Of a DNA stretch of 64,000 nt, positions 14,049-53,909 are shown piece by piece. This DNA is from Acidobacteriota bacterium (GTDB taxonomy: Bacteria > Acidobacteriota > Thermoanaerobaculia > Gp7-AA8 > JAHWKK01). The stretch's first letter is position 1. Each line of letters opens with the position of its first letter. A program made the translations under genes and the position numbers. A model generated the notes under the pieces. That model had not been told where the DNA came from. It ran no database searches and saw only the letters and a list, made by a program, of their open reading frames with translations. The stretch covers positions 62,001-126,000 of the forward strand of contig JAHWKK010000010.1 in the NCBI GenBank assembly GCA_019347945.1. Reading direction: 5' to 3'.

Positions 14049-16076
14049 ATGAAGCCAGCCGAAAAAGTCACGCTCACATCCGGCAGACGGGTCCTGTTTC
14101 TCACCAAAGATCCGGATCTGATCCGGAAACAGCTCTCCGGAGAGCTCGACCTCACGCTCGACGACCTTCAGGTGCCCGACGATCTTTTAGACGACATCAA
14201 CACGGACGCCATGACCCCTGCCTGGGTCTGCTTCCGGCATCGCCCCGAGGACATTGCCAGGGATGCGTATGCCGGATTGATCGTCGATGGGGCGCGGCTT
14301 TTCGAGACCGACGCACTGATCGACGGCAACTTCGAGGTGATCGTTTCCGGCTACCGGAAGGGGACGGGAAGCTCGAGGGAGACCGCCGTCCAGGCGGAGA
14401 AGTGGAGCGGGATCCGGATCGCGATCGCCGAATCGTTCGCTCCGATTCACGCCCAGAACAACATCAATCAGGGCGTCCTCATGGGGGATTACGAGGTTCT
14501 CCGGCGACTGATGCAGGGCGATTCTATTCCCCTCTCGGAGCTCTACGAGGACTACGACCCGATCACGCAGCTGATCGTTCGCTGGGGTGGACTCTTTCCC
14601 TTTGCGAAGGCGCTCGAGAGCGGAGAGATCGAGATTCCACCGATCGACACCGGCGAGCGGCCGATGAACATGACCGAGAAGGTGCTCGCCCGGCACCTCC
14701 TTCCCGGCTGTGGAAGCGAGTACGTCAAACCGGGTGATGCCGTTCTCGTCAACGTCGATGGCGGATACACGCACGAGTTCACGACCGCCCAGGTCCATCA
14801 TTTCCTGACTCAGGAGTATGGCCCCGATTACGAGATCAGGAATCCCGCCAAATTCGCGGTCTTCGAAGATCACCTGATTTACGCGGACGACGTCGACAAG
14901 ATGCGTCCCTTCATCCCCGAGATCCAGACGCTGCGGCGGATGCAGCGGGAGTTTCAGCAGCACACGGGAGTTCGGGATTTCTCGGCGGTCGATCGAATCT
15001 CGCCCGGAATCTGTCACGAGGTGGCGCGGGAGGAGCTCGTCGATCCGGGAGACTTCATCCAGGCGACCGACAGCCATACGTGCATGGGGGGCGTGAACAA
15101 TGCGCTGTCGTGGGGTGTCGGTGCCACCGAATACGCGAACCTCGTCCATTCGGGATTCACGCAGGTCGAGATTCCCGAAGCGATCCGGTTCGATCTCGTG
15201 GGCGAGCTGCAGCCGAGCGTGACCGCGAAGGACGTGATGCTCCACATCCTGCTCGAGTACGCACGTCCGCAGAAAACGCTCAACCGGGTCATGGAGTTCA
15301 CCGGCGCCGGCCTCGCGACCCTCTCGATGGACGAACGGGCGACGCTCGCGAACATGGCGACGGAATGCTCGGCACGCGGAGCAATCGTTGCCGCGGACGA
15401 GGAGACGTACCGCTGGATCGCGTCACTTCGACCCGATGCCGACGTCGATGCGATGCGGGCCCGGTCGGTCGCACCCGATCACGGAGCCGAGTACGCCGGC
15501 GGCACGCACGTCATCGATCTCGCCGTGATCGTTCCGATGGTGGCGCACCCGGGCGATCCCGATCACGGGATTCCGTCGGATCCGACCAACGGAGAGCTGG
15601 TCGCCAACGTCGCCGACGTCGAGATCGACATCGCGTACGGCGGAAGCTGCACCGCTGGAAAGATCGATGATCTCATCTTCTATCACCGCGTCTGCGCCGA
15701 GGCGGTGCAGGAGGGGTTGAAAGTCGCTGACGGCGTGAGGTTTTACATCCAGTTCGGCTCGCGCATGGTCGAGGAGTTCTGTCGCGAACAGGGGATGATC
15801 GAGACGTTCGAGAAGGCGGGGGTCGAGCTGATCCACCCCGGATGCGGCGCCTGCATCGGCTGCGGGCCGGGCGTCTCGACCGAATCCGAGCAGGTGACGA
15901 TCAGCGCGATCAACCGGAACTACAAGGGGCGCTCCGGCCCGGGACGGCTCTGGCTCGCCTCGCCGCTGACCGTCGCGGCATCCGCGTTCACCGGGCGGAT
16001 CACGGCGTTCGAATCGGGCATGTTCGCTTCGATGCGCGAAACGGTCACGACCGGCTCGAGCGAGCGCGCCCGATGA
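14049..16076 (+). CDS. Aconitase/isopropylmalate-dehydratase superfamily hydro-lyase, swivel domain first
   Basis: A 675-residue [4Fe-4S] hydro-lyase. Residues about 40-165 form the swivel (LeuD-like) domain, with the substrate-loop motif GYRKGTGSSRE and IAESFAPIHAQNNINQGVL. The LeuC-like catalytic part follows, with DSHTCMGG. Likely cluster ligands are Cys534 in GGSCTAGKID and Cys599 and Cys602 in HPGCGACIGCGPG. Canonical AcnA has the swivel at the C-terminus and AcnB has an extra HEAT domain, so this domain order is unusual. The substrate (citrate, methylcitrate, homocitrate or another) is uncertain. Its stop overlaps the formate dehydrogenase start (ATGA), which implies translational coupling. 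Confidence 0.85.
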   Translation: MKPAEKVTLTSGRRVLFLTKDPDLIRKQLSGELDLTLDDLQVPDDLLDDINTDAMTPAWVCFRHRPEDIARDAYAGLIVDGARLFETDALIDGNFEVIVSGYRKGTGSSRETAVQAEKWSGIRIAIAESFAPIHAQNNINQGVLMGDYEVLRRLMQGDSIPLSELYEDYDPITQLIVRWGGLFPFAKALESGEIEIPPIDTGERPMNMTEKVLARHLLPGCGSEYVKPGDAVLVNVDGGYTHEFTTAQVHHFLTQEYGPDYEIRNPAKFAVFEDHLIYADDVDKMRPFIPEIQTLRRMQREFQQHTGVRDFSAVDRISPGICHEVAREELVDPGDFIQATDSHTCMGGVNNALSWGVGATEYANLVHSGFTQVEIPEAIRFDLVGELQPSVTAKDVMLHILLEYARPQKTLNRVMEFTGAGLATLSMDERATLANMATECSARGAIVAADEETYRWIASLRPDADVDAMRARSVAPDHGAEYAGGTHVIDLAVIVPMVAHPGDPDHGIPSDPTNGELVANVADVEIDIAYGGSCTAGKIDDLIFYHRVCAEAVQEGLKVADGVRFYIQFGSRMVEEFCREQGMIETFEKAGVELIHPGCGACIGCGPGVSTESEQVTISAINRNYKGRSGPGRLWLASPLTVAASAFTGRITAFESGMFASMRETVTTGSSERAR

Positions 16077-19000
16077 AGAAGCGATTTCTTCTCGACGCCT
16101 GGCCTCTCCTCCGGCAGATCAGAACCGGGAGCGACGGAACGGGCGCCGAGGCGATGTCCGATCGAACCCGAACGCTCGAAACGAAGACGAAGGGTCTGCG
16201 CGCAACGAAATCGATCTGTCCCTACTGCGCCGTCGGTTGCGGACAACTCGTCTATGCGAAGAATGACCGGCTCGTCGCGATCGAAGGGGATCCTGAATCG
16301 CCGATCTCACGGGGGCGCCTCTGCCCGAAAGGTTCGGCGAGTCATCAGTTGCTCACCCATGCCGGACGACTGACGAAGGTGAAGTATCGCGCCCCACGCG
16401 CCACCGAATGGACCGAGATCCCGCTCGATCGTGCGATGGAGATGATCGCCGAGCGCGTCTGGGAATCGCGCTCGCGGACCTTCGTGCCCGAACGCGACGG
16501 CCACCAGTGGATGCAGTGCGCCGGGATCGCGCACCTCGGTGGTGCGACGCTCGACAACGAAGAGAACTACCTCATCAAAAAGCTCTTCACCGCCGGCCTG
16601 GGGATGACGCGCGTCAGCAACCAGGCCAGGATATGACATAGCTCCACGGTGCCCGGTCTGGGCACCTCGTTCGGACGCGGCGGGGCGACGACCGCCCAGC
16701 AGGACCTCGCGAACTCCGACGCGATCCTCATCATGGGATCGTCGATGGCCGAAAACCATCCGGTCGGCTTTCAGTGGGTGATGGAGGCAAAAAAGCGTGG
16801 TGCCAAGGTCATCCACGTCGATCCGCGGTTCACCCGCACGTCGGCCGTCGCCGACTACTGGCTTCCTCTACGCGCGGGATCCGACATCACATTCCTCGGG
16901 GGACTCGTCAATCATGTGATCGAGCACGATCGGATCTTTCGCGACTATGTCGTCGCGTACACCAATGCGCCCGTCCTTCTGAGAGACGACCTCCGCCTTC
17001 CGGACGAGAACGAAGGGCTGTTTTCGGGGTGGAACGGTGAAGAGGATCCGACCCGCTACGATCCGGAGAGCTGGTTCTATCGGAACTCCCGTGAGCGTGC
17101 GAACCGTGAACCCGACTCCTCCGACCGTGGAGGGGAGGGACTCGACTTCGAAGGGATCGAGCGCGACGACACGCTCGAAGATCCTCGCACGGTCTATCAG
17201 AAGCTGAAAGCGCAGTTCAGCCGGTATACCCCCGAAATGGTCCAGCGAGTCTGCGGAGTGCCGCGGGATCGCTTCGTTGAGATCGCCAAGATCTTCAGCG
17301 CAGCGTCGGGACCGGAGAAGACGGCGGCGATCTGCTATGCGGTCGGATGGACCCAGCATTCGTCGGGCGTCCAGACGATCCGGACGGCCGCGATCCTCCA
17401 GATGCTGCTCGGTAACATCGGAAGGCCCGGTGGCGGCATTCTCGCTCTGCGAGGACATGCGTCGATCCAGGGGTCGACCGACATACCGACGCTGTTCGAC
17501 ATCCTGCCGGGTTATCTCGCGATGCCGAAACTCGGAGAGTCGGCAAACCTCGACGCACATCTATTCGCTCACAAGGTCGATAAAGGATGGTGGGCGAATT
17601 ACGACCGGTATCTCGTCAGTCTGCTCAAGGCGTATTACGGAAGCGCGGCGACCGAGTCGAACGACTGGGGCTTCGGCTGGCTCCCCCGCGTGACTGGGGA
17701 TCATTCTCATCAGGGCTACTGGCTCGAGATGGCGAGAGGCGAGCTGGAGGGGCTCTTCGTGATGGGGCAGAATCCGGCGGTCGGCGCCCCGAGCTCCGGT
17801 TTCGAGCGAAAGGCGCTCGCGCAGCTCGACTGGATGGTCGTTCGCGATCTGGTCGAGACCGAGACGGCGAGCTTCTGGCGGAACTCCCCCGAGGTGCGGC
17901 GTGGCGAGACGAAACCGGAGGAGATCGAAACCGAGGTCTTTCTCCTTCCGGCGGCGGGCCACGCCGAGAAGGATGGGACGTTCACGAACACCCAACGCCT
18001 TCTCCAGTGGCACGACCGCGCCGTCGAGCCTCCGGGCGACGCCCGCAGCGAGACGTGGTTCATGGTCCACCTCGGGCGCCTGCTCAAGGCGCGCGCAGAG
18101 GAGGAGAATCGGAAGATCGACGAGCCGCTCCGCGCTCTCACCTGGGACTACCGGACCGATTCGAAAGGGGAGCCGGACGCCGAGGAGGTTCTGCGGGAGA
18201 TCAACGGCTCCAGAACGGCGACCGGAGAGCTCGTTTCGGGCTATGGGGACCTCGAGGCCGACGGTTCGACTTCCTGCGGATGCTGGATCTATTCGGGCGT
18301 GTTTCCGGAGGAAGGGCGGAACCGGGCGCGGGAGAGAGCCCCCACCGGCCCCTACGCCCAGGGATGGGGCTGGGCGTGGCCCTCGGATCGCCGCATCCTC
18401 TACAACCGCGCGTCGGCCAGACCCGACGGCGCCCCATGGAGCGAGAGCAAGAAGCTCGTCTGGTGGGACGAGGTCGCGGAGAAATGGACGGGGCTCGACA
18501 CGCCCGATTTCGCGTCATCGAAGCGGCCTGATTACATCCCTGACGACGGTGCGACGGGGGACGATGCTCTGCGAGGTGATCGGCCTTTCATCATGCATCA
18601 GGATGGAGCCGGGTGGATCTGGGTACCGTCGGGTCTGAGGGATGGCCCGCTTCCGGCGCACTACGAGCCGCTCGAAGCACCGATCCGCAATCCGTTCTAC
18701 GATCAGCAGGTGAATCCCGCCGCGACGAGACTGGAGCCCGATCCGACGCGGTGGGCCGAGTCGCCGGACGAGCGCTATCCGTTCGTTCTGACCACCTACC
18801 GCCTGACCGAGCATCACACGGCGGGCGGAATGACACGCACGCTTCCGCGGCTTGCCGAGCTCCAGCCGGAGCTCTTCTGCGAGATCTCGCCGCAGCTCGC
18901 CTCGGAGCGCGCGGTTCGGAATGGCGACGAGGTCGAGATCGCCACCCCGCGCGGACGGATCCGGGCGAAAGCGCTGGTTACGCCACGAATGCGATCGCTC

Positions 19001-19177
19001 GAGATCGATGGGAAAGTCGTTCATCAGGTGGGGTTGCCCTATCACTGGGGCTCGAACGGAGTGGTGACCGGTGACATCGTGAACGATCTGGTCGCTCTGT
19101 CGGAAGAGCCGAATGTGAAGATCATGGAATCGAAAGGTCTGCTGTGCGATCTGCGTCCCGTCGGGAGCCGGACGTGA
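16073..19177 (+). CDS. fdhA: Selenocysteine-containing formate dehydrogenase, catalytic alpha subunit
   Basis: Oxidises formate to CO2 at a molybdopterin (Mo/W) centre. The in-frame TGA at 16634-16636 is read as selenocysteine, residue 188 of 1034: the text reads NQARI-Sec-HSSTVPGLG, matching NQARV-Sec-H of E. coli FdnG. A [4Fe-4S] site is formed by Cys49, Cys52, Cys56 and Cys84. The MGD-binding region and the C-terminal dinucleotide-binding domain (about residues 880-1030) are complete. There is no twin-arginine signal, so the protein should stay in the cytoplasm, unlike FdnG. It is coupled to the upstream hydro-lyase and the downstream FeS subunit by 4-bp overlaps. Confidence 0.95.
16634..16675 (+). 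promoter_or_regulatory. Bacterial SECIS element and Sec TGA codon of formate dehydrogenase
   Basis: Immediately after the TGA the coding sequence can fold into a hairpin with a perfect 7-bp stem, GGTGCCC (16648-16654) and GGGCACC (16660-16666). The loop is GGTCT (16655-16659). The loop sequence and its distance from the TGA (bases 22-26 counting T of TGA as 1) equal those of E. coli fdhF. SelB binds such loops to insert selenocysteine. Confidence 0.93.
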
Positions 19178-36527: not shown

Positions 36528-36579
36528 CAGCATGTGTAAGAGTTTCCAATAGGGAGCACAACCAGAAGGAGGATGAAAA

Positions 36580-36816
36580 ATGAATGTCGTCATCCATTAC
36601 TGCGTCGTTTGAAACTACCTGCCGAGAGCCTCCAGTCTGGCGGCCGCAATCAAGCAGGAGCTCGGCGTCGAAGCGAAGCTCGTCCGGGGGAAGGATGGGA
36701 TCTTCGACGTCTCAGTAAACGATGAACTGATCTTTTCAAAGCATGAAACGGGTCGTTTTCCGGATGAATCGGAAGTGATCGCGTCGATGCGGAAACTCGG
36801 AGAGGCCAGCGGTTGA
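36580..36816 (+). CDS. SelW-like selenoprotein (Rdx family) with CxxU motif
   Basis: A 78-residue thioredoxin-like Rdx/SelW-family protein if the TGA at 36610-36612 is read as selenocysteine (residue 11). The N-terminus is MNVVIHYCVV-Sec-NYLPRAS, giving Cys8-Val-Val-Sec11 at the end of the first strand, as in SelW. The rest reads without interruption to a TGA at 36814-36816: LAAAIKQELGVEAKLVRGKD and GIFDVSVNDELIFSKHETGR, where the strand pattern and the phenylalanine/glycine turn fit Rdx proteins. The ATG at 36580 has AGGAGG 7 bp upstream. The stop overlaps the TTG start of gatC. The role is probably thiol redox. Confidence 0.9.
36610..36645 (+). promoter_or_regulatory. Candidate SECIS for the SelW-like gene
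   Basis: Downstream of the TGA a small hairpin can form: GCC (36628-36630) with GGC (36642-36644), one mismatch, then CC (36632-36633) with GG (36639-36640). The loop is AGTCT (36634-36638). A G in the first two loop bases and a 22-base distance from the TGA fit bacterial SECIS rules, but the stem is weaker than in the formate dehydrogenase gene. Confidence 0.6.
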
Positions 36817-37091
36817 TCGACGTCGAGGAAGTCAAGCGAATCGCCTCGCTCGCGAAGCTCGAGCTGAATGCAGAGGGGCTGGAGAAGATATCGGGCGAGC
36901 TCAGCCGGATCCTCGACTACATCGACAAGCTTCGGGAGCTCGAGGCGGCGGAGCCCGAGGGCCATGAGATCGCGGCTATGGAGCCTCGCGACGATCGTGT
37001 CGTCGAATCTGTGCTCGATGCCGATGCCATTGCCGCGAATGCCCCCGATTTTCGGAATGGCTTCTTCGTCGTTCCTCCGGTGATCGGATGA
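36813..37091 (+). CDS. gatC: Asp/Glu-tRNA amidotransferase subunit C
   Basis: GatC stabilises GatAB, which amidates Glu-tRNA(Gln) or Asp-tRNA(Asn). The 92-residue protein has the standard pattern: VKRIASLAKLELNAEGLEKI, then LSRILDYIDKLRELE and the C-terminal region with FFVVPPVIG. The start is TTG at 36813, overlapping the stop of the SelW-like gene (TTGA). It overlaps gatA by 4 bp. gatB is not in the window. Confidence 0.94.
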   Translation: MIDVEEVKRIASLAKLELNAEGLEKISGELSRILDYIDKLRELEAAEPEGHEIAAMEPRDDRVVESVLDADAIAANAPDFRNGFFVVPPVIG

Positions 37092-38536
37092 GCTCTGAGA
37101 AGCTGACCGAGCTGCCGGTGCGCTACGCGGTTCGCGCGATGGCGAATGGGGAGCTGTCGCGAGCGGACTACGCGGATGCGTTCCTGCAGAATGCGGCGCG
37201 GCACGATTCGTCGCTCGGATCTTTTCTCGAGCGCGACCCGGAAAGGACGGTCTCCGCGCTGGAGAAGGTTCCTGCGGGGCCGCTCTCCGGTCTGACGGTC
37301 GCCGTAAAGGACAACATCGAGACGCTCGGCTTCCGTACGACGTGCGGATCGCGGATGCTCGAAAACTACCGCCCGATGCGCAATGCGACGGTGATCGATC
37401 GCCTGCTCGCGGCCGGAGCGGTCGTTGCGGGAAAGACCAACCTCGACGAATTCGCGATGGGGTCGTCGAACGAGAATTCCGCTTTCGGTCCATGCCGCAA
37501 CCCGTGGGACCTCGAGCGTGTCCCTGGGGGTTCTTCGGGTGGCTCGGCGGCCGCGGTTGCGGCGAGGATGGCTCCGGTCGCGCTCGGCTCGGACACCGGC
37601 GGTTCGGTTCGGCAGCCCGCGGCGCTGTGCGGAATCGTCGGAATCAAGCCGACGTGGGGGAGGGTGAGCCGCTCGGGTCTGGTGGCCTTCGCATCGTCCC
37701 TCGACCAGGTCGGGGTCTTCGGCAAGCGGGTGGACGACGCCGCGCTGGTACTCGAGGTCATCGCGGGACACGATCCTCTCGATGCGACGAGCGCGCACGT
37801 CGCTGTCGGTCCGTATGGTGGATCCTCGAAGGTCGAAAATCTCGAAGGCGTCACGATCGGCGTCATCGCGGAAGCCGTTCAGATGCTCGAGGGCGAAGTG
37901 AAGGAGAACTTCGAGCGCTCCCTGGCGACTCTCAGGAACGGCGGCGCCGAGGTCCGAGAGGTGAGCATTCCGATGCTGCCGTACTCGATCGCAACCTACT
38001 ACATCATCGCGAACGCCGAAGCGAGCGCCAACCTCGCGCGCTACGACGGAGTCCGGTACGGCCACCGCTCGGACCGGCCCGGCACGCTCGAGGAGTTGTA
38101 TACGCGGTCGCGAACCGAAGGGTTCGGCCCTGAGGTCAAGCGACGGATCATGCTGGGAACCTTCGCGCTTTCGTCGGGCTATTACGATGCGTACTACGGC
38201 CGGGCCCAGCGTGTAAGGGAGCGGATCCGGAGAGACGTCGACGCAGCGCTCGCGAAAGTCGATGCGCTCATCTCGCCGACGACACCGGAACCGGCCTTCC
38301 GGATCGGGGAGAAGATCGACGATCCGCTCTCGATGTATCTCAACGACGTGATGACGGCGTCTGCGAATCTGTCCGGTCACCCCGCGATCGCGATTCCGTC
38401 GGGTTTCACCGAAGGCGGGCTTCCGCTCTCGCTGCAGATCACCGGCCCGGCGTTCGGCGAAGCGAAGCTGTTCGAGATCGGCGGCTGGTTCGAGCGCGCC
38501 ACCGACGCCATCCGGCGCCCGCCGCTTCTTTCATAG
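37088..38536 (+). CDS. gatA: Asp/Glu-tRNA amidotransferase subunit A
   Basis: The amidase subunit, which releases ammonia from glutamine for tRNA-dependent amidation. The 482-residue length is standard. The Ser-cisSer-Lys triad is present: Lys in LTVAVKDNIETLG, the cis-Ser in VPGGSSGGSAAAVAAR, and the nucleophile Ser in LGSDTGGSVRQPAALCG. It overlaps gatC (ATGA). Its TAG stop at 38534-38536 is followed in the same frame by a DUF1801 fragment without a start codon. Confidence 0.96.
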   Translation: MSSEKLTELPVRYAVRAMANGELSRADYADAFLQNAARHDSSLGSFLERDPERTVSALEKVPAGPLSGLTVAVKDNIETLGFRTTCGSRMLENYRPMRNATVIDRLLAAGAVVAGKTNLDEFAMGSSNENSAFGPCRNPWDLERVPGGSSGGSAAAVAARMAPVALGSDTGGSVRQPAALCGIVGIKPTWGRVSRSGLVAFASSLDQVGVFGKRVDDAALVLEVIAGHDPLDATSAHVAVGPYGGSSKVENLEGVTIGVIAEAVQMLEGEVKENFERSLATLRNGGAEVREVSIPMLPYSIATYYIIANAEASANLARYDGVRYGHRSDRPGTLEELYTRSRTEGFGPEVKRRIMLGTFALSSGYYDAYYGRAQRVRERIRRDVDAALAKVDALISPTTPEPAFRIGEKIDDPLSMYLNDVMTASANLSGHPAIAIPSGFTEGGLPLSLQITGPAFGEAKLFEIGGWFERATDAIRRPPLLS

Positions 38537-53825: not shown

Positions 53826-53909
53826 ACCCCGAAAAGGCAAGGCTCCGGCGACGGAGCTACGCAAAGTCACAGGGCTGGAATTCTCCAGTCAGCTGGGCTA
53901 CCGAAGGGT
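53826..53909 (+). ncRNA. Cyclic-di-GMP-I (GEMM-I) riboswitch
   Basis: The segment has the GEMM-I layout. P1 closes with ACCC (53826-53829) and GGGT (53906-53909). A GCAAGGC stretch leads into a perfect 6-bp P2, GCTCCG/CGGAGC, capped by a GCGA (GNRA) tetraloop at 53848-53851. Then ACGCAAAGTCACAGGGC, a P3 hairpin and CAGCTGGGCTACCGAAGGG complete the conserved core. It lies 55 bp before the GH18 gene, so this gene is probably controlled by c-di-GMP. The expression platform is not obvious. Confidence 0.85.

Follow-up and report, generated by a model that had tools for sequence, protein, structure and literature searches.

A Conserved SelW-Like Selenoprotein Gene Adjoining gatC in an Acidobacteriota Genome

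Introduction

Can a reading frame that meets a UGA at its eleventh codon be a genuine gene, and what is to be made of its overlap with the start of gatC? The question is raised by positions 36580 to 36816 (forward strand) of the window, by which we mean the whole 64,000-nucleotide stretch of Acidobacteriota DNA analyzed here. From the letters alone, the initial annotation had proposed at this place a small SelW-like selenoprotein with a CVVU motif, a proposal now supported by the Rdx family profile, the conservation of the TGA and the presence of the selenocysteine (Sec) machinery. The gene, hereafter selW, is real, well conserved and ordinary for its kind, and its early TGA is almost certainly decoded as selenocysteine. 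Gene callers that treat TGA only as a stop would miss it, and the annotation of the locus is thereby corrected.

The selW Frame and Its Product

Re-reading of the sequence confirms the frame as initially described. It opens with an ATG at 36580, preceded 7 nt upstream by a Shine-Dalgarno-like AAGGAGG (36566–36572, forward strand), meets the in-frame TGA at 36610–36612 (residue 11), and then stays open until the stop codon TGA at 36814–36816. With the internal TGA read as U, the 78-residue product is MNVVIHYCVVUNYLPRASSLAAAIKQELGVEAKLVRGKDGIFDVSVNDELIFSKHETGRFPDESEVIASMRKLGEASG. Comparison with the Rdx family HMM, suggested as a check at the outset, returned a match to Pfam Rdx (PF10262) over residues 2–71 (E=4.6e-19; 68.8 bits vs. 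a cut-off of 22.6), and the product also matches the NCBIfam model TIGR02174 (CXXU_selWTH) with 57.9 bits against a cut-off of 34.2, while it falls just below the cut-off of the narrower equivalog NF041051 (SelTWH_Campy; 82.8 vs. 88). The matched residues flank the TGA, so that the stretches before and after it form a single protein. The nearest homologue compared is 67% identical to the selW product and likewise carries a TGA at this position. Judging from the two profile matches and this TGA-bearing homologue, the frame is not a product of chance.

The AlphaFold2 model of the product, built with Cys substituted for Sec, has a pLDDT of 94.4 and the element order beta-alpha-beta-beta-beta-helices. 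The C8-V-V-U11 motif sits at the end of the strand formed by residues 3–8, and both C8 and residue 11 are invariant in the alignment of homologues. The best PDB matches of the model are SelW-related proteins, followed by MIEN1 and mouse SelW and then by thioredoxins, which points to a thioredoxin-like SelW fold (TM 0.88 and rmsd 1.1 for 2fa8; TM 0.68 for mouse SelW).

Conservation of the In-Frame UGA

Among 396 Acidobacteriota genomes searched, 119 yielded a match, and these were sorted by hand into 111 whose best match bears the TGA and 8 whose best match does not. TGA-bearing SelW is thus common in the phylum as sampled, with almost no replacement by Cys seen in the subfamily. The same codon is TGA in all 88 TGA-bearing phylum homologues that were read, within the motif [Y]C-x-x-U-(N)-Y-x-P-(R)-(A), and the conserved protein continues downstream of it; this reading sought a TGA in the motif, so that it counts TGA-bearing homologues and by itself says nothing about Cys forms. 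An independent test came from scanning named genomes for a pattern that starts 3′ of the TGA; the codon was TGA in 80/80 loci (the best 80 of 563 confirmed stretches), under record titles that include Acidobacteria, Planctomycetota, Myxococcota, Deltaproteobacteria, Betaproteobacteria and Zixiibacteriota, among others. Position 11 of the homologues, which the initial annotation had singled out for inspection, is therefore TGA throughout both sets, and the frame disruption downstream of it that would have spoken against a gene was seen in none. Two loci from the group without TGA (L106 and L111) carry CTQC and belong to a different Rdx subfamily, and a Cys form occurs in a genome (G061) in which neither SelA nor SelB was found. 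Downstream of the TGA, the protein evolves with a median dN/dS of 0.38 over 155 homologue pairs, a rough estimate given that it is based on 33 codons.

A SECIS Hairpin in the Coding Region

A short way downstream of the UGA, the forward strand carries a bacterial SECIS hairpin, GCCUCC-AGUCU-GGCGGC, at 36628–36644, with a six-pair stem (36628–36633/36639–36644) closed by a 5-nt loop (36634–36638). Folding of the region alone, which had been proposed as the way to find it, gave no significant result in any of three windows (z of −0.80, −0.25, and 0.28), and it was for this reason that covariation was used. In a gapless alignment of 88 sequences spanning 48 nt from the UGA, the helix occupies positions 19–24/30–35 counted from the UGA and is paired in 92.6% of cases, compared with 83.7% in shuffled alignments. 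Changes on both sides were observed in five of the six stem pairs, and the covariation score of 0.276 was reached by none of 500 shuffles (score 0.107), versions of the stem slid along the alignment scoring at most 0.072; shuffling leaves relatedness in as a contributor, and the slid control, which keeps relatedness, still scores far below the real stem. The fourth pair (U36631-C36641) is a mismatch in the window hairpin and G-C in most homologues.

The clearest compensatory changes fall on third codon positions. The third bases of codons 7 and 9 are C-G in 75 sequences and G-C in the remaining 13 of the 88, and those of codons 6 and 10 are CG in 70, UA in 8, UG in 5, GC in 2, and GU in 2, with a single mismatch. 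The second loop nucleotide is an invariant G (G26 from the UGA), and codon 8, when it encodes Ser, is AGT in 38/38 homologues and, when it encodes Gly, GGT in 35/36; in eight open reading frames of the window, AGT makes up 4.8% of Ser codons and GGT 16% of Gly codons. Where two homologues encode the same residue, they also use the same codon in 68% of pairs on average at codons 6–10, against 49% at codons 12–45. Covariation and synonymous constraint together are strong evidence for selection acting on the RNA, as would be expected of a bacterial SECIS. The loop of the selW hairpin presumably resembles that of E. coli fdhF.

RNAalifold recovered only part of the stem from the alignment, with weak energy. 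A search of the window with Rfam at gathering thresholds did not find the SECIS, its sole match being a c-di-GMP-I riboswitch (RF01051) at 53826–53905 on the forward strand, with 58.6 bits. The alignment-based SECIS of the SelW family is clean and usable as a search model; since its pattern, run over the whole genome, matched selW alone, it is too narrow to pick up further selenoproteins.

Sec Machinery and Other Sec Genes

The source genome (3.72 Mb, 99.65% complete) encodes SelB (355 bits), SelA (453 bits), SelD (353 bits), and a tRNA-Sec with anticodon TCA, so that the machinery whose absence would have undermined the selenoprotein reading is all present. Across the 396 phylum genomes, SelA occurs in 104 of the 111 with TGA-bearing selW vs. 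148 of the 285 others (Fisher p=7.6e-17, with kinship ignored). The seven genomes with TGA-bearing selW in which SelA was not found were considered as possible exceptions to this rule and rejected as such, because six of them carry SelB and the remaining one is 64% complete. Three genomes (G046, G193, and G140; 91–100% complete) combine TGA-bearing selW and SelB with no SelA detected at 1e-60, which could reflect broken assemblies or a different route of Sec synthesis.

The second Sec gene that had been noticed within the 64 kb is fdhA, which encodes a formate dehydrogenase alpha subunit of the formate dehydrogenase-N type (15842–19177, forward strand; NF041513, 1531 bits). Its TGA at 16634 lies in the context NQARIU-HSST and is associated with a SECIS-like hairpin, GGTGCCC-GGTCT-GGGCACC (GGTGCCCGGTCTGGGCACC); the start codon is putative, and a gene for a 4Fe-4S beta-like subunit follows. 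Elsewhere in the genome, SelD (L048, 388–1335) contains one in-frame TGA near its N terminus (GGUACKLG), and the maker of the selenium donor is thus probably itself a selenoprotein. Two AhpC/TSA peroxiredoxin genes on reverse strands (L194, G000:C14:71685-72056; L195, G000:C1:94788-95141) have a TGA in a TPGU motif followed by strong hairpins, GGTTCCGGGTTCCGGGACC and CCGGCGAGTTTCGCCGG, respectively; the thioredoxin-family matches in the genome have no internal stop. With selW, this makes at least five genes with a Sec-type TGA, and the "Sec-rich" proteome initially suggested is a fair label for a moderate, not an extreme, endowment.

The gatC Neighborhood

The selW stop codon overlaps the TTG start codon of gatC in the tetranucleotide TTGA (36813–36816, forward strand). 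On the same strand, gatC (36813–37091; TIGR00135 above cut-off), which has no second copy in the genome, as a single match was obtained, is followed by gatA (37088–38536; TIGR00132 above cut-off). A GGAGAGG about 9 nt 5′ of the TTG allows gatC to be initiated independently. Upstream of selW, the window contains an ALO/FAD oxidoreductase gene and nadA.

At two loci of relatives, L112 (identical to locus L019) and L120, gatC directly follows selW after a short gap, and in five others (L115, L122, L154, L161, and L174) it lies about 1.6–2.1 kb downstream with other genes in between; at the other loci it was not found within the DNA examined (about 1.5 kb on each side in the phylum set). In six relatives (L112, L115, L120, L122, L154, and L161), a protein-phosphatase-like ORF stands before selW and gatCA after it, and in most of these a DnaJ-like ORF precedes the phosphatase-like one, both names having been given by reading the sequence by eye; the genes upstream of selW thus differ from those in the window. 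The selW-gatC-gatA order thus recurs in order-level relatives and, as gene order indicates, the coupling is partly inherited and the arrangement old within the order. The TTGA overlap is seen only in the window genome and is absent from the nearest relatives sharing the gene order. An adjacency unique to this genome, and hence functional, was therefore rejected in part. Likewise, the coupling once described as odd for a redox protein is real as far as the overlap goes, the neighborhood itself being order-level synteny without special oddity.

Alternative Readings and Proposed Mechanism

A single base change would suffice to turn a Cys codon, TGC or TGT, into TGA, and standard callers would miss a decayed cysteine Rdx gene or a sequencing error just as they would a selenoprotein. 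A TGA retained in every one of the 88 phylum homologues and 80 scan loci, ahead of a protein that is itself conserved, refutes such a reading, to which we attach next to no probability. The UGA might instead be read as another residue, through a reassigned code or near-cognate read-through, and its position inside a conserved frame would, taken alone, fit read-through too. Yet UGA is a normal stop in this genome, including as the terminator of selW itself, a hairpin with synonymous covariation follows the codon, selW tracks the Sec machinery across genomes, and the family has Cys or Sec at the aligned site of its CxxC/U motif; this makes a residue other than Sec highly improbable.

The overlap with the only gatC invites further thoughts. 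The 10-residue leader up to the UGA could sense selenium ahead of gatCA, the full selenoprotein being incidental: were Sec scarce, termination at so early a codon would leave about 200 nt of the message untranslated and exposed. The strong conservation of the SelW protein beside differing neighbors elsewhere, the GGAGAGG that gatC has of its own, and the lack of the overlap in the nearest relatives of the same gene order leave very little room for this idea. Selenium supply might also gate the single gatC, failed Sec insertion at codon 11 leaving that stretch untranslated and stripping away the ribosomes that would arrive at its start through the TTGA; if true, selenium supply would tune GatCAB and tRNA-dependent Gln/Asn decoding, a scenario that we consider very unlikely.

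With very high confidence, we favor a true bacterial selW with SelB-dependent Sec insertion at the UGA at 36610, a redox protein built on C8 and U11, and gatC as an ordinary neighbor. Ribosomes would start at 36580; at the UGA, SelB with GTP and Sec-tRNA would bind the hairpin at 36628–36644 and deliver selenocysteine in place of termination. Insertion of Sec is strongly supported by comparison and most likely takes place. The outcome would be a 78-residue thioredoxin-like protein with C8-x-x-U11 as its redox center. Motif and predicted fold suggest that it is most likely a small cytosolic selenol/thiol oxidoreductase cycling between a selenenyl-sulfide and a reduced form, its reductant most likely being a low-molecular-weight thiol or a thioredoxin-type partner. 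gatC would be an operon neighbor inherited in the order.

Relation to Known SelW Systems

The selW gene described here is a further member of the SelW-like selenoproteins, known in bacteria since 2005–2006. CxxU SelW-like proteins formed the largest selenoprotein family in the Sargasso Sea set of 2005, with 48 genes (PMC1088965), and bacterial members are listed in PMC9312934 and in PMC1794560. The latter paper credits Acidobacteria with four selenoproteins from three families, and notes very few or no Cys homologues of SelW-like proteins in Sec-using organisms. The window gene shares with bacterial SelW-like selenoproteins (PF10262) the family, the N-terminal CxxU, and the UGA (PMC1088965; PMC9312934; PMC1794560), as well as the near absence of Cys forms in Sec users reported in the last of these. 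Also shared is a hairpin just 3′ of the UGA, whose small apical loop contains a guanosine, as described for bacterial SECIS elements (PMC1088965). No essential difference from these systems was found, the window gene being distinguished by its place in Acidobacteriota and next to gatC.

The Agrobacterium Atu0228 and Streptomyces SAV_2001 proteins (PDB 2fa8 and 3dex) have the same fold (TM 0.80–0.88), whereas they are slightly longer and carry Cys at the site of Sec in the window protein. Mammalian SelW (2npb) and MIEN1/C17orf37 (2ljk; sequence match to the selW product at 6.7e-11) belong to the Rdx family and have the CxxU/CxxC motif in common with the window protein. In contrast to eukaryotic SelW, whose SECIS lies in the 3′ UTR (PMC1088965), selW of the window carries its SECIS within the coding region.
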